A stretch of 64,000 nucleotides of DNA from Flavobacterium pisciphilum (GTDB lineage Bacteria > Bacteroidota > Bacteroidia > Flavobacteriales > Flavobacteriaceae), in contig NZ_JAJJMO010000001.1 of the NCBI RefSeq assembly GCF_020905345.1, forward strand, positions 2,914,001 to 2,978,000, written 5' to 3'. Below, piece by piece: positions 11,427 to 59,993 of the stretch. Made by a program: the position numbers and the translations under genes. The notes beneath the pieces are model-generated. The model searched no databases and was not told the DNA's origin. It was given only the letters and a program-made list of their open reading frames with translations. Position 1 is the first letter of the stretch. Each line of letters opens with the position of its first letter.

Positions 11427-12224
11427 TTAAGACTTAATGCTAGATTGTTCATTCTGTAAAACAACATCTTCCTGAAAGGTTTTGGCTTTGCTGAAGATTA
11501 ACAATTGCTTATAAATCAACTGTCTTACCTGATCTCGAAGGTCTTTTCTATCTTCGGGATGTAGCGTCGCTGTTTCTATAAACGAATGTATTTTTACCCT
11601 CATTTTTCCAGGACTACCGCTGAAGAAAGTATATGAAAATCGTTTTTTATTGTCGGCATAAGTAATTGGAACAATTGGAATGTGGTGTTCAACTGCCAAA
11701 CGAAAAGCACCGTCCTTGAATTCATCCAAAATAATTGATTCATCATCAGGAACTCCTCCTTCAGGAAAAATACAAATACTCAACCCTTGATTCAAACGTT
11801 TTTGAGCTCTGTTAAAAACGTCCATTTTACTTTTTGAAGATTTTCTATCCACCAAAATGCAAGTTCTTTTATAGAAAAAACCAAACAAAGGAATCTTAGA
11901 AAGTTCTTTCTTTCCAACAAAAACAAATGGGTTTTTAATAATAGCCAATGTCAACATGATGTCAGTCATCGAAGTATGATTGGCAACTATCATATAACTT
12001 TTTTTAGGATCAAGTTCTTGCTCCTGCTCTATTTTGTAGTAAAATCCCATTCCAAAAAGAATGAATTTGGCCCAAATTCTGGCCATTCTAAAAAAATACG
12101 GATACCCGCTTTCAGTAAGAATTGATAACACTAAAAACGGAAACATTACCAATATTGGGATGGCCATTAAAACATAAAACCAAACACGCCAAATAGCCCA
12201 AAAAACAATTTTTACTCCTTTCAT
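11427..12224 (-). CDS. 1-acyl-sn-glycerol-3-phosphate acyltransferase (PlsC-like)
   Basis: This membrane-associated enzyme should acylate lysophosphatidate to phosphatidate in phospholipid synthesis. The start is set at the ATG at 12224 (MKGVKIVFWAIWRVW), just before the membrane segment at about residues 10-35. The longer frame to 12353 runs through low-complexity repeat DNA and adds implausible sequence. The 265-residue product shows the NHTSMTD (HX4D) catalytic motif, a GKKELSKIPLFGFF block and the FPEGG substrate-binding motif. It is transcribed divergently from trpS. Acyl-chain or head-group specificity is not evident. Confidence 0.85.
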   Translation of the reverse strand: MKGVKIVFWAIWRVWFYVLMAIPILVMFPFLVLSILTESGYPYFFRMARIWAKFILFGMGFYYKIEQEQELDPKKSYMIVANHTSMTDIMLTLAIIKNPFVFVGKKELSKIPLFGFFYKRTCILVDRKSSKSKMDVFNRAQKRLNQGLSICIFPEGGVPDDESIILDEFKDGAFRLAVEHHIPIVPITYADNKKRFSYTFFSGSPGKMRVKIHSFIETATLHPEDRKDLRDQVRQLIYKQLLIFSKAKTFQEDVVLQNEQSSIKS

Positions 12225-21575: not shown

Positions 21576-21589
21576 GTTTCACGTGGAAC
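21576..21589. promoter_or_regulatory. parS-like site 1
   Basis: GTTTCACGTGGAAC is a palindrome with one mismatch and matches the bacterial parS core (GTTnCACGTGnAAC) bound by ParB. It is the most distant of five such sites around mnmG. Confidence 0.7.
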
Positions 21590-21603
21590 AATTTTTAGTT
21601 TTC

Positions 21604-21822
21604 AGTTTGCAGTCTTAGTTTGCAGTCTTAGTTTGCAGTCTTAGTTTGCAGTCTTAGTTTGCAGTCTTAGTTTGCAGTCTCAGTTTACAGTCTCAGTTTA
21701 CAATGTTCAGTTTACAATGTTCAGTTTACAATGTTCAGTGTTCAATCTCAGTGTTCAATCTCAGTGTTCAATCTCAGTGTTCAATCTCAGTGTTCAGTTT
21801 ACAGTGTTCAGTTTGCAGATTC
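21604..21822. repeat. Decaying 13/14-bp tandem repeat array
   Basis: About 17 end-to-end units. Five are perfect AGTTTGCAGTCTT copies (21604-21668), followed by variants ending CTC, three copies of AGTTTACAATGTTC, four copies of AGTGTTCAATCTC, then mixed units. Neighbouring copies are more alike than distant ones, as expected from slippage or unequal exchange. Frames across it give only repetitive peptides, so it is treated as non-coding. There are no spacers, so it is not CRISPR. Confidence 0.9.
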
Positions 21823-21893
21823 AATTTACATCTCATCTTTCACATTTCACTCCTTACATCTCACACTTTACATTTTACAATCTAAAAACAAAA

Positions 21894-23765
21894 CTACCTT
21901 CCCATATAAATTAACAATACCGAAATATCACTTGGAGAAACTCCGCTAATTCTTGAAGCTTGAGAAATTGTCACAGGACGAATTTTCCCTAGTTTTTGCT
22001 TTGCTTCAATCGACATTGATTTTATTTTATTATAATCGAAATTTTCTGGAATTTTCACTTCTTCTAATCTCGTTAGCTTATCAGCGTTGTTTCTTTCTTT
22101 TTCGATATAACCTGAATATTTGACTTGAATTTCGGCTTGCTCTAAAATTTCCTGATCCAAATCATTTTCTGCAATATATTCTTTTACTTTTTCAAATTTC
22201 ACAATATCCTCCAAATCTATTTGTGGACGAGAGAAAACCTTAAACATTTTGTCTCCTTGTGAAATTAGTGCTGTTCCCTTAGATTCCAAAATTGGATTGG
22301 CTTCTGCTACAGAAACACTCGTTTCTTTGAAAAAAGCAACCATTTTTTCAGATTCTTTCAATTTATGCTCCATTCTTCTCAAACGTTGCTCCGAAGCCAA
22401 ACCAATTTCATACGCCATTGGTGTTAATCTGAAGTCGGCATTATCTTGACGCAACAATGTTCTGTATTCTGCACGAGACGTAAACATACGATAAGGCTCT
22501 TCAGTTCCTTTCGTAATTAGGTCATCAATTAAAACACCAATATACGCTTCATCGCGTTTTAAGATTAATGGTGCTTTTTCTTTTACTTTTAGATGCGCAT
22601 TTATTCCAGCCATCAAACCTTGTGAAGCCGCTTCTTCATATCCTGTCGTTCCATTAATTTGTCCCGCAAAATACAATCCTTCGACTAATTTAGTTTCAAG
22701 TGTATGCTTTAATTGAGTTGGTGGAAAATAATCATATTCTATCGCATAACCAGGACGGAAAAATTTCACGTTCTCAAAACCTACAACAGTACGCAATGCT
22801 TTAAATTGAATATCCTCTGGCAGAGAAGTAGAAAATCCGTTTACATAAACCTCACAAGTATTCCAGCCTTCAGGCTCAACAAATAACTGGTGGCGTTCTT
22901 TATCAGCAAAACGATTAATCTTATCTTCGATAGAAGGACAATATCTCGGACCGATACTTTTTATACGACCGTTGAACATTGGTGAACGATCAAAACCAGA
23001 TCTCAAAATATCATGTACATCTAAAGACGTATAGGTCATGTGGCAAGATCTCTGATGAACAAGAGGCGAAGTCACATCTGAATATGAAAACTTATCCGGC
23101 TTAGCATCTCCCTTCTCTTCATTCATTTTAGAATAATCCAAAGAACGACCATCAACTCGTGGCGGTGTTCCTGTTTTCATTCTTCCTGCTTCAAAACCTG
23201 CCTGAATTAAATCTTCGGTGATTCCGTATGCAGCACTTTCTCCTGCTCTTCCTCCACCGAATTGTTTGTCTCCAATATGAATCAAACCATTCAAGAAAGT
23301 TCCATTTGTCAAGACAACAGATTTGGAACGGATTTCAATTCCAAGAGAAGTTCGAACTCCTTTTATCTTTCCATTTTCAATTATCAAACCTTTTACCATT
23401 TCTTGGTAAAAGTCAAGATTAGGCGTTCCCTCGAGCATCATTCTCCACTCTTCTGCAAAACGCATTCTGTCGCTTTGAACTCTTGGCGACCACATTGCTG
23501 GTCCTTTTGATTTGTTCAACATTTTAAATTGAATTGCCGTGCGGTCGGAAACAATTCCTGAGTACCCACCAAGCGCATCAATCTCACGCACAATTTGTCC
23601 TTTTGCAATTCCTCCCATCGCTGGATTACATGACATCTGTGCGATGTTTTGCAAGCTCATTGTAATAAGCAACGTTTTAGATCCAAGATTTGCGGCCGCT
23701 GCCGCGGCCTCTGAGCCGGCGTGTCCTGCGCCAACAACAATAACATCGTATTCTTCTAAAAACAT
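21894..23765 (-). CDS. mnmG: tRNA uridine-5-carboxymethylaminomethyl(34) synthesis enzyme MnmG (GidA)
   Basis: This 623-residue FAD enzyme works with MnmE to modify the wobble uridine of several tRNAs, using methylene-tetrahydrofolate and glycine or ammonium. The FAD-binding GAGHAGSEAA motif is near residue 12. Conserved blocks include MSCNPAMGGIAKGQIVREIDALGG, here read in parts (SCNPAMGG, KGQIVREIDALGG), GTFLNGLIHIG, RYCPSIEDK and TGYEEAASQGL. The C-terminal MnmE/tRNA-binding domain ends the protein (ASRISGVSPSDISVLLIYM). It is flanked on both sides by parS-like palindromes. Confidence 0.95.
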   Translation of the reverse strand: MFLEEYDVIVVGAGHAGSEAAAAAANLGSKTLLITMSLQNIAQMSCNPAMGGIAKGQIVREIDALGGYSGIVSDRTAIQFKMLNKSKGPAMWSPRVQSDRMRFAEEWRMMLEGTPNLDFYQEMVKGLIIENGKIKGVRTSLGIEIRSKSVVLTNGTFLNGLIHIGDKQFGGGRAGESAAYGITEDLIQAGFEAGRMKTGTPPRVDGRSLDYSKMNEEKGDAKPDKFSYSDVTSPLVHQRSCHMTYTSLDVHDILRSGFDRSPMFNGRIKSIGPRYCPSIEDKINRFADKERHQLFVEPEGWNTCEVYVNGFSTSLPEDIQFKALRTVVGFENVKFFRPGYAIEYDYFPPTQLKHTLETKLVEGLYFAGQINGTTGYEEAASQGLMAGINAHLKVKEKAPLILKRDEAYIGVLIDDLITKGTEEPYRMFTSRAEYRTLLRQDNADFRLTPMAYEIGLASEQRLRRMEHKLKESEKMVAFFKETSVSVAEANPILESKGTALISQGDKMFKVFSRPQIDLEDIVKFEKVKEYIAENDLDQEILEQAEIQVKYSGYIEKERNNADKLTRLEEVKIPENFDYNKIKSMSIEAKQKLGKIRPVTISQASRISGVSPSDISVLLIYMGR

Positions 23766-23786
23766 TTTTTTGTTTTATTATTCTCT

Positions 23787-23810
23787 AGAAACCACCTAAA
23801 GGCGGTTTCT
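23787..23810. other. Hairpin just upstream of mnmG
   Basis: AGAAACCACC pairs with GGCGGTTTCT (one mismatch) around four bases, 22 bases before the mnmG start. There is no T run on the minus strand, so it could be a leader hairpin of mnmG or a weak terminator after ybeY. Confidence 0.5.
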
Positions 23811-23830
23811 AAAATTAACTTCATCTATTT

Positions 23831-23844
23831 GTTCCACGTGGAAC
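23831..23844. promoter_or_regulatory. parS-like site 2
   Basis: GTTCCACGTGGAAC, a perfect 14-bp palindrome matching the parS core, in the gap between mnmG and ybeY. Confidence 0.75.
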
Positions 23845-23868
23845 GCTTTAAAAATTCTACTCATTAAA

Positions 23869-23884
23869 TGTTCCACGTGAAACA
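23869..23884. promoter_or_regulatory. parS-like site 3
   Basis: TGTTCCACGTGAAACA matches the 16-bp consensus TGTTnCACGTGAAACA, with a single asymmetry between its half-sites. Confidence 0.78.
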
Positions 23885-23913
23885 TTCTATGTTCTACTGA
23901 ACAAAAAACAACA

Positions 23914-23933
23914 CATGTTCCACGTGGAACATG
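23914..23933. promoter_or_regulatory. parS-like site 4 (20-bp perfect palindrome)
   Basis: CATGTTCCACGTGGAACATG is perfectly palindromic over 20 bp and contains the 16-bp parS core. It is the most symmetrical of the five sites. Confidence 0.8.
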
Positions 23934-23955
23934 CTTATAAAAAGAGGTAGTCTAA

Positions 23956-24375
23956 TTATAGTTCCACGTGGAACATAGCAATTTTCTCTTCTTCTTTAGC
24001 TCTCATTAAAGCAGCGTCAGCATCTGATTTGTCTTTATAACCACAGTAATGTAATATACCGTGAGCTAAAACACGCTTTAATTCATTCTCAAAAGTAACA
24101 TTAAAATCAAGAGCGTTGTCGCGAACTCTTTCAACAGAAACAAATATATCTCCGTTTAGTTCGTTACCTACTGTATAATCAAAACTGATAATATCAGTAA
24201 GTGTATCATGATTAAGATACTCTACATTGATTTTATGAAGGTATTCATCATCACAAAATATATAACTTATCTCACCTTCTTTTTTATTCTCCGAAAGAAT
24301 CACAGCTGAAAGCCACTCTTCAAACGCTTCTTCATTATCTAAAACGAAGTCTGTTTCGTAATTAAAATTGATCAT
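23956..24375 (-). CDS. ybeY: rRNA maturation endoribonuclease YbeY
   Basis: A 139-residue metal-dependent RNase implicated in 16S rRNA 3'-end processing and ribosome quality control. The motif HGILHYCGYKD near residue 108 matches the family zinc site HGxLHLxGYDH, except that the third ligand position is Asp rather than His. The core SYIFCDDEYLHKINVEYLNHDTLTDIISF, here in parts (YLHKINVEYLNHD, TDIISFDY), is typical. The last codons (MFHVEL) are formed by a parS-like palindrome. Its start overlaps the stop of the upstream DUF4175 gene by 4 bp (ATGA), so the two are coupled. Confidence 0.92.
   Translation of the reverse strand: MINFNYETDFVLDNEEAFEEWLSAVILSENKKEGEISYIFCDDEYLHKINVEYLNHDTLTDIISFDYTVGNELNGDIFVSVERVRDNALDFNVTFENELKRVLAHGILHYCGYKDKSDADAALMRAKEEEKIAMFHVEL
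23961..23974. promoter_or_regulatory. parS-like site 5, inside the ybeY coding end
   Basis: GTTCCACGTGGAAC, a perfect palindrome. On the minus strand it supplies the codons for FHVEL just before the ybeY stop codon. Confidence 0.75.
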
Positions 24376-32511: not shown

Positions 32512-33503
32512 TTATAAAGATTTTTGTGTTAACAACGCGTTAAACCACCCTAAATTTTACTAAAAATTAAAATAAAGCGTTTTGTTAGACCATCTTTATA
32601 AAACCAACAATAGAGTTATCTCTTTTTAAATATTGTCTTAAAATTAAGATATGAAAGCTGTTTTTAATCTATAAAAGCTATAATTTTTAATATAATAATA
32701 GTTATTATAAATAATAAAATAAAACATAGTTAATCAAAATTATAATAATTTAAATTGATACTTAATTGCTATTGATTTTTATCAAGAATATGCTCTTCAT
32801 AATAAAATTGAAGAAAGCGAAATAGCCCAATAATAAAAATTGATATAATTTTTCAACTTGGATTAATTTTATCAATTTGATTGATAAAACAACTGAAAAG
32901 CTATACTTATAAACATTTCAGTGTTGACAAGCACAAAAAAGGGATAGAATCAGGCTAAAAATCAAAATAAAGAGTTCTATTGAATTATATTTATAAAACT
33001 AATAAAGTAGTCATCTTAATTTAAATAACTTCTTAAAATCAATATATGAAAACCTTTTTTAATCTATAAAAACTATAATGTTTTAAATATTAATAGTTTT
33101 TATAAATAATAGAATAAAACTTAATTAATAAGTATTTAAATAATTTAAATTTATACTTATTATTATCCATTTTTATGAAGAATATCTTCTTCGTAATAAA
33201 AGTGAAAAAGGCAAAATCCTTAAGTAATAAAATTGGTAGAATTTTTTAACTTAAATTAATTTAATCAATCAAATTAATAAAAATGGTTATGAAACTGTAC
33301 TTATAAACATTTCAATGTTGACAACAGCAAAAAGGATATCAAATCAGGTCAAAACTAAAATAAAGATCGCTAATCAACCATTTAATTAAAAACATAAATT
33401 ATATCGTCTGATTTTAAAAAACACCTTAAAATCAATTTATGAAAGCTGATTTTAATATATTAAAACTATTGTTTTTAATATATTAATAGAAAATTTAAAT
33501 AAT
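32512..33503. repeat. Two full and one partial diverged copies of a ~394-bp non-coding unit
   Basis: Unit 1 is 32512-32906, unit 2 is 32907-33300 and a partial unit 3 is 33301-33503. Anchors recur with a constant period: TTATAAACATTTCAxTGTTGACAA-like sequence at 32512, 32907 and 33301, and a block reading AAAAT(C/T)AA..TATGAAA...TTTTTAAT at 32641, 33036 and 33429. Most other positions also align by eye. All frames are closed. An inverted repeat ATAAAAACTAT/ATAGTTTTTAT in unit 2 is partly retained in unit 1. Function is unknown. Confidence 0.8.
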
Positions 33504-33531
33504 AAAAAAAGCGCTTTTTATAAGCGCTTTT
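33504..33531 (-). terminator. glnS terminator
   Basis: On the minus strand AAAAGCGCTTA pairs with AAGCGCTTTT and is followed by a T run. It lies just past the glnS stop at 33550 and forms the right-hand edge of the repeat region. Confidence 0.85.
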
Positions 33532-37915: not shown

Positions 37916-40096
37916 TTATTCTGCTCTTCTTAAAAAATGAAAATCCAATTGTTTTTTAACTAAATCGGCATTTTTTACTTTAACGTAAATCTCATCGCCT
38001 AATTGTAATATCTTATCTGATGTAGCACCAACTAGTGCGTATTGTTTTTCATCAAAGGTGTAATAATCATCTTTTATCTCTCTGATTCTTACCATTCCTT
38101 CACATTTATTAGATACAATTTCTACATAAATTCCCCATTCAGTAACTCCTGAAATAACTCCCAAGAACTCTTCATCTTTATGATCCTGCATGTATTTAAC
38201 CTGCATGTATTTAATACTATCTCGTTCTGCATTGGTAGCTAAACCTTCCATATTCGAACAATGTAAACACTTTGTTTCGTATGTTTCTTCATCTACCGAT
38301 TTTCCACCATCTAGATAATATTGCAGTAATCGATGTACCATTACATCGGGATAACGACGTATTGGTGAAGTAAAATGGCTGTAATAATCAAAAGCTAAAC
38401 CATAATGCCCAATGTTATCAGTTGAATATTTGGCTTTACTCATACTTCTAATAGCAAGAGTATCAATTAAGTTTTGTTCTTTTTTACCATTAACTTCTTC
38501 CATTAAAGCGTTTAATGATTTAGATATATCTCCTTTATTACGGAAATCTATCTTATAACCAAACTTAGCAATTACAGATTGCATTGCAATTAATTTATCT
38601 TCATTTGGCTCATCATGAATTCTATAAACAAACGTTTTCTTTTGTTTACCAATGTATTCAGCAACTTTTCTATTTGCTAAAAGCATGAATTCTTCAATCA
38701 AATGATTCGCATCTTTTGATACTTTAAAATAAACTCCTTCTGGTTCTCCTTCAGCATTCAAATCAAATTTAACTTCCACTTTATCAAAAGAAATAGCTCC
38801 ATTAGCCATTCTTTTCTTTCTTAAAATCTTAGCTAATTCATCTAATTTTAAAGTTGCATTTGTAATTTCATCTGAAACAACATAAGAGCTTCCTGTAATT
38901 GAAGTTTCTGCAGGAATTGTATTGTCTTTTGTTTCAATGATATATTGCGCTTCTTCATAGGCAAATCGTTGATCTGAATAAATTACAGTTCTACCAAACC
39001 ATTGGTTAATAACTTGTGCATTCTCTGATACTTCAAAAACAGCCGAGAAGGTATATTTTTCTTCATTAGGTCGTAATGAACATGCAAAGTTAGATAACAC
39101 TTCTGGAAGCATTGGTACTACTCTATCCACTAAATAAACAGATGTTGCACGTTGATAAGCTTCATCATCTAAGATTGTTCCTTCTTCTAGATAATAAGAA
39201 ACATCGGCAATATGAATTCCAATTTCGTAATTTCCATTCTCTAATTTCTTAAAAGACAATGCATCATCAAAATCTTTTGCATCTTTTGGATCTATCGTAA
39301 ATGTAAGCGTATCTCGCATATCGCGACGCTTAGCAATTTCACTTGCTTGTATAGAAGTATCTATCTTTTGTGCATATGCTTCTACTTCTACTGGAAAATC
39401 TGATGGTAAACCATATTCAGCCAAAATAGCATGAATTTCAGTATCATGTTCTCCTGGTTTTCCTAAAACTTTTACTACTGAACCAAATGGACTATCTGCT
39501 CTCTTTGGCCAATCTTCTATCGTAACTAAAACTACATCACCATTTTGCGCCTCTCCTATTTTATCCTTTGGAATAAAAATATCAGTATACATTTTAGGAT
39601 TTGCAGTAGAAACGAAAGCAAAATTGTTTTGAATATCAATAACACCAACAAAGTCAGTTTTATTTCTTTCTACAACTTCAATAACTTCACCTTCAGGACG
39701 TTTACCTTTTCTTCTGTTATAAACGTAAACTTTTACTTTATCTTTATCTAGTGCACGATTTAAATTGTTAGTAGGAATAAATACATCCTCTGTAAAGTCT
39801 GGACAAATAAAATAAGCCGTTTTACGACTTGTCATATCTATCGTACCTTCATAATAATCCTGACTAATTGCTTTGATTAAATATTTACCTGGTTCTGATT
39901 CTACAATCTTATTTTGAGATGCAAGAATCTTTAAATCTTTTATAATTTGGTTACGACTTTTAGTATCGTCTAGTTCGAGCTTTGCTCCTATTTGTTTGTA
40001 ATTAAATGGTTTATTAGCATGTTGCGATAAAATTTTTATAATCTTACTTGAGAAATCTTTCTCATTCTTTATCGGTTTTCTAATTTTCTTACTCAT
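37916..40096 (-). CDS. rnr: Ribonuclease R
   Basis: A 726-residue 3'-to-5' exoribonuclease that degrades structured RNA. An N-terminal winged-helix-like part (about residues 1-80), cold-shock domains, the RNB catalytic domain with DPKDAKDFDDALSF near residue 267, HFTSPIRRYPDVMVHRLL near residue 580, and a C-terminal S1 domain (LGVISGVTEWGIYVEIVS) are all visible. It is the first gene of a leftward operon, with a candidate TACTTTTG promoter at 40181-40188. Confidence 0.94.
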   Translation of the reverse strand: MSKKIRKPIKNEKDFSSKIIKILSQHANKPFNYKQIGAKLELDDTKSRNQIIKDLKILASQNKIVESEPGKYLIKAISQDYYEGTIDMTSRKTAYFICPDFTEDVFIPTNNLNRALDKDKVKVYVYNRRKGKRPEGEVIEVVERNKTDFVGVIDIQNNFAFVSTANPKMYTDIFIPKDKIGEAQNGDVVLVTIEDWPKRADSPFGSVVKVLGKPGEHDTEIHAILAEYGLPSDFPVEVEAYAQKIDTSIQASEIAKRRDMRDTLTFTIDPKDAKDFDDALSFKKLENGNYEIGIHIADVSYYLEEGTILDDEAYQRATSVYLVDRVVPMLPEVLSNFACSLRPNEEKYTFSAVFEVSENAQVINQWFGRTVIYSDQRFAYEEAQYIIETKDNTIPAETSITGSSYVVSDEITNATLKLDELAKILRKKRMANGAISFDKVEVKFDLNAEGEPEGVYFKVSKDANHLIEEFMLLANRKVAEYIGKQKKTFVYRIHDEPNEDKLIAMQSVIAKFGYKIDFRNKGDISKSLNALMEEVNGKKEQNLIDTLAIRSMSKAKYSTDNIGHYGLAFDYYSHFTSPIRRYPDVMVHRLLQYYLDGGKSVDEETYETKCLHCSNMEGLATNAERDSIKYMQVKYMQDHKDEEFLGVISGVTEWGIYVEIVSNKCEGMVRIREIKDDYYTFDEKQYALVGATSDKILQLGDEIYVKVKNADLVKKQLDFHFLRRAE

Positions 40097-40279: not shown

Positions 40280-40513
40280 ATGCAAAGCTTTAAAACCATT
40301 GCTATATTCAATTATCTACACGAAACTGTTGTTCTAAAACATTTATTAGAACAAGAGGAAATTCCATATTATCTCGAAAATGAAATGACCCTTTCGGTTG
40401 TTCCCTTTTATTCGACAGCTTTGGGCGGAATCAAACTTAACGTTCATCCTGAGGATTTCGAAAGGGTTCAGGAAATCCTTGACAATCTCAATAATCCTCT
40501 TTCAATCGTTTAG
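40280..40513 (+). CDS. DUF2007-type small protein
   Basis: A 77-residue soluble protein: FKTIAIFNYLHETVVLKHLLEQEEIPYYLEN, given in parts as FKTIAIFNYLHE and LLEQEEIPYYLEN, then GGIKLNVHPEDFERVQEIL. This matches the DUF2007 putative signal-transducing fold (a small beta-alpha domain for which no clear function is known). A near-consensus -7 box (TATCTTTA, 40259-40266) lies 13 bases before the ATG. It is divergent from rnr and followed by a long non-coding gap. Confidence 0.8.
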   Translation: MQSFKTIAIFNYLHETVVLKHLLEQEEIPYYLENEMTLSVVPFYSTALGGIKLNVHPEDFERVQEILDNLNNPLSIV

Positions 40514-41216
40514 CTTCTTTTTCTAATTTTTTTTCTTTTTAAAATTTTAATAGTTGTTAACATATATTATATAATACAAAAGAAAAAATTTAAATTTAAT
40601 TAATTTTTGGTTGTTATTATAGTGTGTTAATATGTCATATAAATTTATTTTTAAATGTATTGAAATGAAGTTTGTCTTAGTTATATTGAGTTATCAACAT
40701 ACTTATATTTCGTTAAAGGATTAATTCATAAGACTTTTTAGATTTTAATTAACATTGGTTAACAACCTAAAATGAATTCATTTTGTAGATAACTTCATAT
40801 GTTGATTTTTGTTGAAAATGTACTTTTTGATATTGATAACTTTTCTAAAAATTCTCCAAACTTTATTAGGTTTTTAAATTCCAGTTTTGGATTAGGTTTT
40901 TTAATGACACAACCAAAAAAAACTTCTAATTTTCTTTCTATACTTATTAACAAAAGATGTTAATTTAAAGTTAACTGAATATCAAGCAATTGCGTTTTGC
41001 TATTAACAATATAAAAAATTAACAAAATCATTAAATAATTATAACTGATTATCAATTATTTATGTAATATGTAAATCGTTAATAACTCTGTAATGTCCTG
41101 TTAAAATGAGAGTTATAATTCAGTTAGCTTTTATGCTTTAAATACAAAATAAGAATAACATTCTACAGCAATGTAAATAAACAAATGTTAGTAAAGTATA
41201 TCTAAAATTCTTTGGT
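40514..41216. other. Long AT-rich intergenic region
   Basis: About 700 bases with no plausible ORF. It is T-rich and contains many TTAAC/GTTAA words and one near-match to a DnaA box (TTATCAACA, 40691-40699). It lies where gene orientation changes from mainly leftward to mainly rightward. It could be regulatory or an origin candidate; the DnaA-box evidence alone is weak. Confidence 0.45.
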
Positions 41217-41224
41217 TAAATTTG
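41217..41224 (+). promoter_or_regulatory. -7 element for rpiB
   Basis: TAAATTTG matches TAnnTTTG, 26 bases before the ATG at 41251. This supports 41251, not 41212, as the start. Confidence 0.5.
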
Positions 41225-41250
41225 CGCTACACAACTTAAATATACTTAAA

Positions 41251-57752: not shown

Positions 57753-58799
57753 TTGGCAGAATTGTCCAATAAAATTAAGCATATAGCCGTCATGAGACTT
57801 TCCGCAATGGGAGATGTCGCTATGACGGTTCCTGTTTTACGCGCTTTTGTAAAACAGTATCCAGAGGTTCAATTAACCATTATTTCACGCCCATTTTTCA
57901 AACCATTTTTTGATGGAATTCCTAACTTGACTTTTTTTGTTTTTGATGATAAAGAGCGTCATAAAGGGTTTCTTGGATTAGTGCGTTTATATAAAGATTT
58001 AAAAAAGCTACATATTGATGCTTTTGCTGATTTACATAACGTTTTACGTTCTAAAGTTGTTCGTACTTTTTTCGCTTTAGGCGGTAAAAAGACTGCTTTT
58101 GTTGATAAAGCAAGAGAGGCAAAAAAGGCATTAATGCGTACAGAAAATAAAATCTTTAAGCAATTGCCAACTATGTTTGAACGACATGCAAAAGTGTTTG
58201 AAGAACTAGGATTTCCATTGGATTTATCTAACCCTGAGTTTCCTAAAAAAGCAATTTTAAGTGCAGAAATTACAAACTTGGTAGGAGAAAATTATCAAAA
58301 ATTAATTGGTATTGCTCCTTTTGCACAGTATGAGTCTAAAGTTTATCCTTTAGATTTGATGCAGGAAGTAATTGCAAAATTGGCTGAAAATAAAGATCAT
58401 ACCATCTTACTTTTTGGTGGAGGAAAGAAAGAAGTTGAAATTTTAGAATCGCTTTCTGAACCTTTTAAAAATGTAATAAATGTAGCAGGAAGGATAAAGT
58501 TTCAACAAGAGCTAAAACTAATTAGTAATCTTGATGTAATGCTTTCTATGGATTCTGGGAATGCCCATATTGCGGCTATGCTAGGAGTTAAAGTAATTAC
58601 ACTTTGGGGAGCTACACATCCGTATGCAGGATTTTTACCTTTTAATCAAAAGTTTGAAAATGCATTAGTATCTGATAGAATAAAATTTCCTTTATTGCCA
58701 ACATCAGTGTATGGAAATAAAATAGTTCCTGGTTATGAAGATGCAATGCGAACTATTTTGCCTGAACAAGTAGTAGATAAGATTCAATCTCTGTTATAA
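57753..58799 (+). CDS. GT9 family (heptosyltransferase-like) glycosyltransferase
   Basis: A 348-residue GT-B enzyme. KHIAVMRLSAMGDVAMTVPV is the family N-terminal Rossmann motif. ADLHNVLRSKVVRTFFAL, IGIAPFAQYESKVYP, ILLFGGGKKEVEIL, and SMDSGNAHIAAMLGVKVITLWG near the C-terminal nucleotide site follow. The TTG at 57753 is used as the start because an ATG at 57792 would remove the first strand (KHIAV). The start directly follows the DUF4254 stop. It probably adds a sugar to lipid A core or another surface glycan. Confidence 0.88.
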   Translation: MAELSNKIKHIAVMRLSAMGDVAMTVPVLRAFVKQYPEVQLTIISRPFFKPFFDGIPNLTFFVFDDKERHKGFLGLVRLYKDLKKLHIDAFADLHNVLRSKVVRTFFALGGKKTAFVDKAREAKKALMRTENKIFKQLPTMFERHAKVFEELGFPLDLSNPEFPKKAILSAEITNLVGENYQKLIGIAPFAQYESKVYPLDLMQEVIAKLAENKDHTILLFGGGKKEVEILESLSEPFKNVINVAGRIKFQQELKLISNLDVMLSMDSGNAHIAAMLGVKVITLWGATHPYAGFLPFNQKFENALVSDRIKFPLLPTSVYGNKIVPGYEDAMRTILPEQVVDKIQSLL

Positions 58800-58800
58800 G

Positions 58801-58863
58801 TTTACAGTTTACAGTTTACAGTTTACAGTTTACAGTTTACAGTTTACAGTTTACAGTTTACAG
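58801..58863. repeat. Nine perfect tandem copies of TTTACAG
   Basis: An uninterrupted 63-bp heptamer array starting one base after the GT9 stop codon and before its terminator. It is likely to vary in copy number by slippage. The same heptamer occurs at 35700-35727, and related words occur in the array at 21604-21822. Confidence 0.95.
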
Positions 58864-58875
58864 TTTGTGTTATAT

Positions 58876-58940: not shown

Positions 58941-59993
58941 TTATACGTCGTCGTAATCTACATAAATAGTCTCTGATGTAGGATGTGCTTGACAGGTAAG
59001 AATTAATCCATCTGCAATTTCTTTATCAGTTAAAATAGAGTTTTTTCTCATCTCTGCAGTTCCAGCGGTTACACGTGCAAGACAGCTGCTGCAAATTCCG
59101 CCTTGGCAAGAATATGGAGCATCAATTCCTTGTTTTAAAGCTGCATCAAGTATGGTTTGTTTTTGAGACATTTCAAAAGAAACTTCTTCATCATCAACAA
59201 GAACAGTAATTTTTGAATGTCCTTCTAATGAAGTATCAATTTTATTTTCTTGAGTAGAAGTAGTAAAAAGCTCAAATTTAATAGCTGATTCTTTTACATT
59301 TTTTTCTTTCAAAATTCCTGAAACGGTATTAATCATTTCTTCAGGACCACACAAAAAGAATTTATCAAATTCTAATTCTTTGTGCTTGTTATTCAATACA
59401 TAATTCACCGCTGATTTATCGATTCGGCCAAACAATGCATTTTCTGCTTTAGCTTGACTAAAAACATAATGTACGAAGAAACGACCTACATATTGTAATT
59501 GTAAATCGTGTAATTCTTGATAAAAAATTGTTTCATCGGGAGTTTTATTTCCATAAACCAATACAAATGAACTTTTTGGCTCACTTTTTAAAACTGATTT
59601 TAAGATAGAAAGTACTGGAGTTATTCCACTTCCAGCAACAAATGCTGTATAGTTTTTTTGTCTTTCAGGTTCAGGCTCAAATGTAAACTTACCCTCTGGT
59701 TTACCTACTTCAAGGACATCTCCAGCTTTTAGTTTTGTAGTTGCAAATTGAGAAAAGACGCCATTTTTTACCGCTTTTACCGCAATGCGTAGTTCACCAC
59801 TTTCTGGAGAAGAACAAATAGAATAAGCACGACGAAGTTCTTTGTTATCTAATGTTAATCGTAAATTGATATATTGACCTGCAATAAAAGTATAGTTTGA
59901 TTTTAGTTCTTCAGGAACATTAAAAAGTATCGAAACCGCAGCTGCAGTTTCACGTTTTACTTCTTTTATTATTAGTTTTAAGAATGAAGGCAT
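58941..59993 (-). CDS. Ferredoxin--NAD(P)H reductase-like protein with C-terminal 2Fe-2S domain (PaaE-like)
   Basis: A 350-residue electron-transfer protein. The N-terminal FAD domain has RRAYSICSSPESGELRIAVK (FAD-binding RxYS). The NAD(P)-binding domain has FVAGSGITPVLSILK and FFLCGPEEMI. The C-terminal ferredoxin domain has the cysteine cluster YSCQGGICSSCLARV plus a later Cys (LILTCQA). The architecture matches PaaE-type reductases, but no paa oxygenase genes are nearby, so the partner is unknown. The start is set at the ATG at 59993 with a TACTTTTG -7 box 16 bases upstream. Confidence 0.88.
   Translation of the reverse strand: MPSFLKLIIKEVKRETAAAVSILFNVPEELKSNYTFIAGQYINLRLTLDNKELRRAYSICSSPESGELRIAVKAVKNGVFSQFATTKLKAGDVLEVGKPEGKFTFEPEPERQKNYTAFVAGSGITPVLSILKSVLKSEPKSSFVLVYGNKTPDETIFYQELHDLQLQYVGRFFVHYVFSQAKAENALFGRIDKSAVNYVLNNKHKELEFDKFFLCGPEEMINTVSGILKEKNVKESAIKFELFTTSTQENKIDTSLEGHSKITVLVDDEEVSFEMSQKQTILDAALKQGIDAPYSCQGGICSSCLARVTAGTAEMRKNSILTDKEIADGLILTCQAHPTSETIYVDYDDV

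Follow-up and report, generated by a model that had tools for sequence, protein, structure and literature searches.

The 64,000-nucleotide stretch of Flavobacterium pisciphilum analyzed here (the window; C1:2,914,001-2,978,000 of genome G000, which has 5,457,213 bases in 2 contigs) carries five short palindromes around the gene mnmG (gidA), and we predict with high confidence that together they form the parS centromere of the chromosome. An earlier note on this DNA had proposed a chromosomal segregation center at this place, and the evidence from the whole genome favors it: the palindromes correspond to the parS consensus, they are clustered at the scale of the genome as well as of the window, they lie near the replication origin placed by GC skew, and the genome codes for a ParA and for a ParB with the GERRxRA motif, a helix-turn-helix (HTH) domain, and parS-type residues.

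The palindromes are exact matches to GTTNCACGTGNAAC, of which the window contains five, with the 14-mers starting at 21576, 23831, 23870, 23917, and 23961. They are arranged around mnmG and its neighbor ybeY as follows:

21576-21589, no strand: parS site 1, GTTTCACGTGGAAC, in the gap that separates mnmG from a GNAT-like gene, 3' (downstream) of mnmG
23831-23844, no strand: parS site 2, GTTCCACGTGGAAC, upstream of mnmG, in the gap before ybeY
23870-23883, no strand: parS site 3, GTTCCACGTGAAAC, in the gap between mnmG and ybeY
23914-23933, no strand: parS site 4, a perfect 20-bp palindrome with its 14-mer at 23917-23930, in the gap between mnmG and ybeY
23961-23974, no strand: parS site 5, GTTCCACGTGGAAC, within the last codons of ybeY
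21894-23765, minus strand: mnmG (gidA), PF01134 at 1.3e-159, with parS sites on both sides
23956-24375, minus strand: ybeY, PF02130 at 2.4e-29, whose 3' end holds parS site 5

In 100 dinucleotide shuffles of the window, the mean number of GTTNCACGTGNAAC matches was 0.00 and the largest was 0. The same five sites are the only exact matches in the 5.46-Mb genome, all inside 2.4 kb, where about 0.15 matches per genome are expected from base composition and the reversed control pattern gave none; the sites are thus not scattered. The earlier note had described five palindromes within 2.4 kb, four of them within 145 bp and one of them a perfect 20-bp palindrome, with nothing comparable elsewhere in the window, and our measurements agree with it on each point. 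Sites 2 to 5 span 144 bp (23831-23974), the 14-mer of site 4 lies inside the palindrome CATGTTCCACGTGGAACATG (23914-23933), and for the 16-mer TGTTNCACGTGNAACA, which two of the sites match perfectly and three with one mismatch, the best further site in the window has two mismatches (at 59067). Two of the starts given there, 23869 and 23914, are simply the 16-mer start and the 20-bp palindrome start of the sites whose 14-mers begin at 23870 and 23917. Site 5 is not intergenic, as it overlaps the 3' end of ybeY (C terminus ...MFHVEL). A genome-wide search at three mismatches to parS was uninformative (342 matches versus 212 for the reversed control).

Sites beside mnmG are also found in most of the relatives and in most of the phylum sample. 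Among 40 genomes (that of the window and 39 relatives), 37 have exact parS sites; all 30 mnmG loci returned for this set have at least two exact sites within 1.5 kb, and seven of the other ten genomes have sites within 3 kb of mnmG, with no exact site at that distance in the last three (G029, G034, and G039). The phylum sample comprises 118 genomes of completeness at least 90, own genome included, and is uneven, with 26 of them belonging to family f29. Exact sites were present in 111 of the 118 (266 in total, most often two each) and mnmG in 117, the genome in which it was not matched (G154) being left out of locus retrieval. For 88 "same phylum" genomes with mnmG, we examined the gene and 3 kb on each side, while listed positions were used for 26 closer site-bearing genomes and one locus (G041); the two remaining closer genomes have no exact site. 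A site lies no more than 3 kb from mnmG in 106 of the 111 site-bearing genomes (81/84, 24/26, and 1/1), which accounts for 228 of the 266 sites and, by our tally, for 27 of 30 families. Many sites hug the gene: of the 161 near sites in the 88 genomes, 104 are at most 50 bp and 77 at most 20 bp away from an end of the mnmG match, a match that may begin a few residues inside the open reading frame (ORF). Sites occur on both sides of mnmG in 32 of 81 genomes, only 3' in 34 (including 13 of 13 site-bearing f35 genomes), and only 5' in 15. Within the genus, larger genomes carry more parS sites (Spearman 0.85, n = 30). The trend persists after correction for descent, with r = 0.70 over 23 independent contrasts drawn from 24 genomes (sign-flip p = 0.0008; mnmG tree and rounded sizes); the contrasts left out G014, with its broken mnmG, and the five genus members of the phylum sample.

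A third set was drawn from named genomes and comprises the best 80 of at least 587 mnmG loci, among which the closest mnmG is that of Flavobacterium sp. MC2016-06 (96% identity). Here, an exact site lies no more than 3 kb from mnmG in 64 of 80 loci, and an exact or one-mismatch site in 69. In eight of these loci, an exact site falls within the mnmG ORF itself. In several Bacteroidales (L298, L301, L304, L306, L309, and L312, near 11,567-11,592), an exact parS was seen at a near-identical place in the mnmG coding sequence. In G063, five of nine sites are at a contig start (L073:261-559) with mnmG on another contig, which may be a second cluster or an assembly break. Among the literature matches listed, we found no paper pointing to a parS-mnmG link in Bacteroidota; the tables of Livny 2007 may list such sites, and we do not claim that the link is unpublished.

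The genes next to mnmG are far more varied. Across 97 genomes, its nearest neighbors fall into 35 clusters on the 5' side and 26 on the 3' side (single-linkage clusters, with Pfam run on one member each of six), the commonest being found in 21 and 41 genomes, respectively. mnmE is 5' of mnmG in 30 of the 97, and the 3' cluster containing rsmG is present in up to 42, an upper figure for which direct blastp gives 31. Of the features measured next to mnmG, parS is therefore the most constant. In the available parts of an earlier study (BMC Genomics 2007, PMC2099444), parA, parB, gidA, gidB, and dnaA are among the origin genes that possibly once formed one ancestral cluster. Taking this list together with the neighbor data, we read the parS-mnmG link as a remnant of such a cluster. 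An ancestral origin cluster (mnmE-mnmG-rsmG-parAB-parS) would have broken up in Bacteroidota, with parAB departing and parS remaining with mnmG, and the sites would have been kept there by descent as its relic.

The protein expected to bind the sites is encoded elsewhere. The sole match to the ParB HTH domain (PF17762) in the genome is at C1:2,050,364, 0.89 Mb from the parS cluster, which settles that a ParB gene exists; it immediately follows a parA with a KGGVGKTT motif, forming the one ParA-ParB operon of the genome. The protein matches solved ParB/Spo0J structures (7bnk, 5.7e-52). We aligned 11 ParB sequences (our own and the ten loci returned, from 35 genomes with a match) and set residue positions via the conserved motif, not via alignment to the Caulobacter protein. 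All 11 carry GERRxRA, R173, and G201, and Q162, N178, and R204 are likewise invariant. NBS sites can be told from parS by positions 1 and 6. According to the accessible passages of PMC7383237, R173 and G201 mark parS-specific ParBs, while Q173 and R201 are of the Noc type. Nucleoid occlusion (Noc/NBS) sites were ruled out on both counts, as the ParB has R173 and G201 and the sites are parS-type. In 11 genomes, no exact parS was found in the roughly 1.5 kb on either side of the ParB HTH match, nor was one found that close to our own dnaA, which is at C1:4,149,815. In all 23 single-contig genomes, mnmG and parB are separated by about 169 kb or more. The centromere thus stands apart from both parAB (0.89 Mb) and dnaA (1.2 Mb). 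The earlier note had leaned on mnmG often lying near parAB; that part of the argument fails here, and what survives of it is that parS itself accompanies mnmG in most of the phylum sample.

We searched 47 genomes (36 + 11) for ParB and found it in 45. The two in which it was not detected, G039 (0.3 Mb) and a Blattabacterium (0.6 Mb), keep mnmG, with no site of up to two mismatches within 3 kb of it in G039 and none of up to one mismatch within the 3-kb flank in Blattabacterium. Eight genomes have ParB and mnmG and no exact site; seven of them have a one-mismatch site no more than 3 kb from mnmG, and G129 has only a two-mismatch site at that distance. Shuffled versions of ten loci gave a mean of 0 to 0.15 matches per locus at up to two mismatches.

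Regarding the replication origin, GC skew changes sign within the window near 40-41 kb, and the cumulative G-C minimum of a 464-kb stretch is at window position 40,001, 16 to 18 kb from the parS cluster. In twenty 20-kb samples across the chromosome, skew is mostly negative from 0.28 to 2.82 Mb, the samples at 1.40 and 2.52 Mb being weakly positive. It is mostly positive at 1-20 kb and again from 3.08 to 5.34 Mb, apart from one weakly negative sample at 3.36 Mb. The sites thus lie near the origin as placed by cumulative skew and far from dnaA, 1.2 Mb away; the available parts of a study of gut Bacteroidetes (Microbiome 2023, PMC10197239) state that the origin in that group need not contain dnaA. 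From skew, the best origin candidate would be the AT-rich gap before rpiB:

40500-41240, no strand: candidate replication origin, an AT-rich gap preceding rpiB where cumulative G-C reaches its minimum; it contains a few DnaA-box-like words

In the relatives G101 and G103, skew passes from negative to positive between the samples on either side of mnmG, and in G044, it changes between the samples at 660 and 990 kb, ahead of mnmG at 1,025 kb.

Several observations weigh against this picture. Local skew returns weakly to negative at 3.00-3.06 Mb, and in G133, one of the four relatives sampled for skew, the signal is too weak to place the origin. DnaA-box words (TTATCCACA, at most one mismatch) show no excess in the window (24 found, 20.3 expected), so that the suggested origin is placed by skew. 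In ParB, none of the 11 sequences keeps the parS-contacting residue S172, which is replaced by K, N, or D (K in our own), and G170 and K171 each deviate in one of 11. Linkage to mnmG fails in 5 of 111 site-bearing genomes, from families f19 (G102 and G075), f30 (G072 and G051), and f44 (G147). The two f19 genomes have one site inside thrC, the threonine synthase gene (L061:1501-1514 and L062:1501-1514), and none by mnmG, the second site of G102 lying 2.8 kb from the first. In the named set, 11 of 80 loci have neither an exact nor a one-mismatch site within 3 kb, with the record ending at or just beyond the mnmG end in two of them; the 11 include five Saprospirales-type records (Phaeodactylibacter, Neolewinella, and three Saprospiraceae metagenome-assembled genomes [MAGs]), a Capnocytophaga MAG, and Blattabacterium cuenoti. 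ParB is present in G072, G051, and G147, whose exact sites are not by mnmG, and in the Capnocytophaga MAG, Phaeodactylibacter, and Neolewinella, which have no site of up to one mismatch by mnmG; the absence of sites by mnmG is therefore not confined to genomes without ParB. Last, descent from an ancestral cluster does not by itself explain why so many sites hug mnmG so tightly.

That tight spacing, and the sites inside the mnmG ORF in eight named loci, could instead suggest that the palindromes serve as operators through which a local regulator controls mnmG (or ybeY), and not as ParB sites. We consider this very unlikely, as the sequence is the parS consensus in a genome whose ParB has R173 and G201, 34 of 81 genomes (every site-bearing f35 genome among them) have their near sites only 3' of the gene, and the two f19 genomes have a site inside thrC and none by mnmG. 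The two genomes without detected ParB, which keep mnmG with no site beside it, argue in the same direction, although some ParB-bearing genomes are alike in this. Another explanation, that the palindromes act as RNA, forming terminator or attenuator hairpins in the ybeY-mnmG transcript, draws on site 4, which is scored on the minus strand as a hairpin of terminator type with T-rich sequence after it. However, site 4 is alone among the five in the terminator scan, and some sites lie inside ORFs. The composition of the sites can be compared between strands once they are oriented along mnmG, which was done for 401 exact sites from 88 loci of the phylum sample, 30 of the relatives, and 80 of the named set (species may repeat, and L175-L184 are left out). 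Of these, 399 have C or T at position 4 and A or G at position 11, and the asymmetric forms that break the sense-strand stem are as frequent as those that keep it (71 and 75, p = 0.80), which favors a DNA site over an RNA hairpin. An RNA-level function was rejected in general on the strand-equal asymmetric forms and the terminator scan, and the hairpin explanation for this locus is highly improbable.

Plasmids often carry partition sites, and the cluster could in principle belong to a mobile element, such as an integrated plasmid, that brought a partition system of its own. We see next to no chance of this, since the flanks contain core genes (mnmG, ybeY, two aminoacyl-tRNA synthetases, rnr, and rpiB), the only ParB gene of the genome is 0.89 Mb away, and the arrangement is common to most of the phylum sample, a conservation that already contradicts a mobile origin.

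If the sites are the centromere, then by established ParABS biology ParB dimers would load at them as CTP clamps, the clamps would slide across the mnmG-ybeY region, and ParA, acting on the ParB-parS complex, would pull newly copied origins apart. The usual second job of parS is the loading of SMC condensin, and serving as an SMC-ScpAB loading site would call for an encoded SMC and ScpA, neither of which was detected in this genome. The SMC hinge (PF06470) was found in 0 of 10 genomes of the order of the window (including our own and the 0.3-Mb G039), and ScpA (PF02616) in 0 of 9 (our own included) and not in Blattabacterium, MukBEF-like systems not having been searched for in either case. The 14 genomes from outside the order all had both domains. 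The models can miss true members, the hinge model having given no match in the control Caulobacter, which has SMC. In the control Bacteroides ihuae, neither the hinge nor the ScpA model matched, so the absence is not confined to Flavobacteriales, and the accessible passages of the gut Bacteroidetes study (PMC10197239) report two species without known condensin. As neither domain was detected in the Flavobacteriales tested, SMC condensin loading by parS may be absent here. A more speculative proposal, which we hold to be rather unlikely, is that selection, and not descent alone, keeps parS by mnmG, with ParB loading at the start and stop of the gene coupling expression of its product, a tRNA-modifying enzyme, to the replication and segregation state of the origin, and that the Flavobacteriales centromere works without SMC-ScpAB. 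If this were true, Flavobacteriales would separate ParA-driven origin movement from condensin loading.

The window also contains several repeats. The gap separating parS site 1 from the 3' end of mnmG is occupied by 13/14-bp tandem repeats (AGTTTGCAGTCTT and variants, 21602-21880). About 2.2 copies of a 393-bp repeat with 18 to 20% GC are located between the parS cluster and the putative origin (32637-33507), in a region with no ORF of at least 100 amino acids, and AGTTTAC is repeated 9.7 times with 100% matches at 58799-58866.

The sites give the probable segregation center of a Flavobacterium-type chromosome at base resolution. Finding mnmG would locate the centromere in most of the Bacteroidota sampled and would help to place origins where dnaA is no guide. 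With parAB and most neighbors gone, the parS-mnmG link looks like a clear example of a site that has outlived its operon, and if Flavobacteriales do lack SMC and ScpA, the order would be a natural test of ParB-parS without that condensin.

Chromosomal ParABS centromeres are known from Bacillus subtilis, Caulobacter, and Pseudomonas aeruginosa. The system described here shares with them (PMC7333895) the site sequence, the clustering, the proximity to the origin, the ParA-ParB pair, and R173 and G201. Unlike in those systems, the sites bracket mnmG and are far from both parAB (0.89 Mb) and dnaA (1.2 Mb), and neither the SMC hinge nor ScpA was detected in the Flavobacteriales tested. The closest parallel in the same phylum is that of gut Bacteroidetes (PMC10197239), in which parS clusters found by consensus lie near the skew-defined origin; the accessible passages name no neighbor gene for those clusters, whereas mnmG adjoins the one described here. 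A place of gidA (mnmG) near the origin is likewise familiar, but in the Bacteroidota sampled mnmG usually keeps parS beside it, with parB far off. The sites are very probably a real chromosomal centromere, ordinary in kind, and their location beside mnmG and away from parAB is a trait of most of the phylum sampled that deserves to be recorded.

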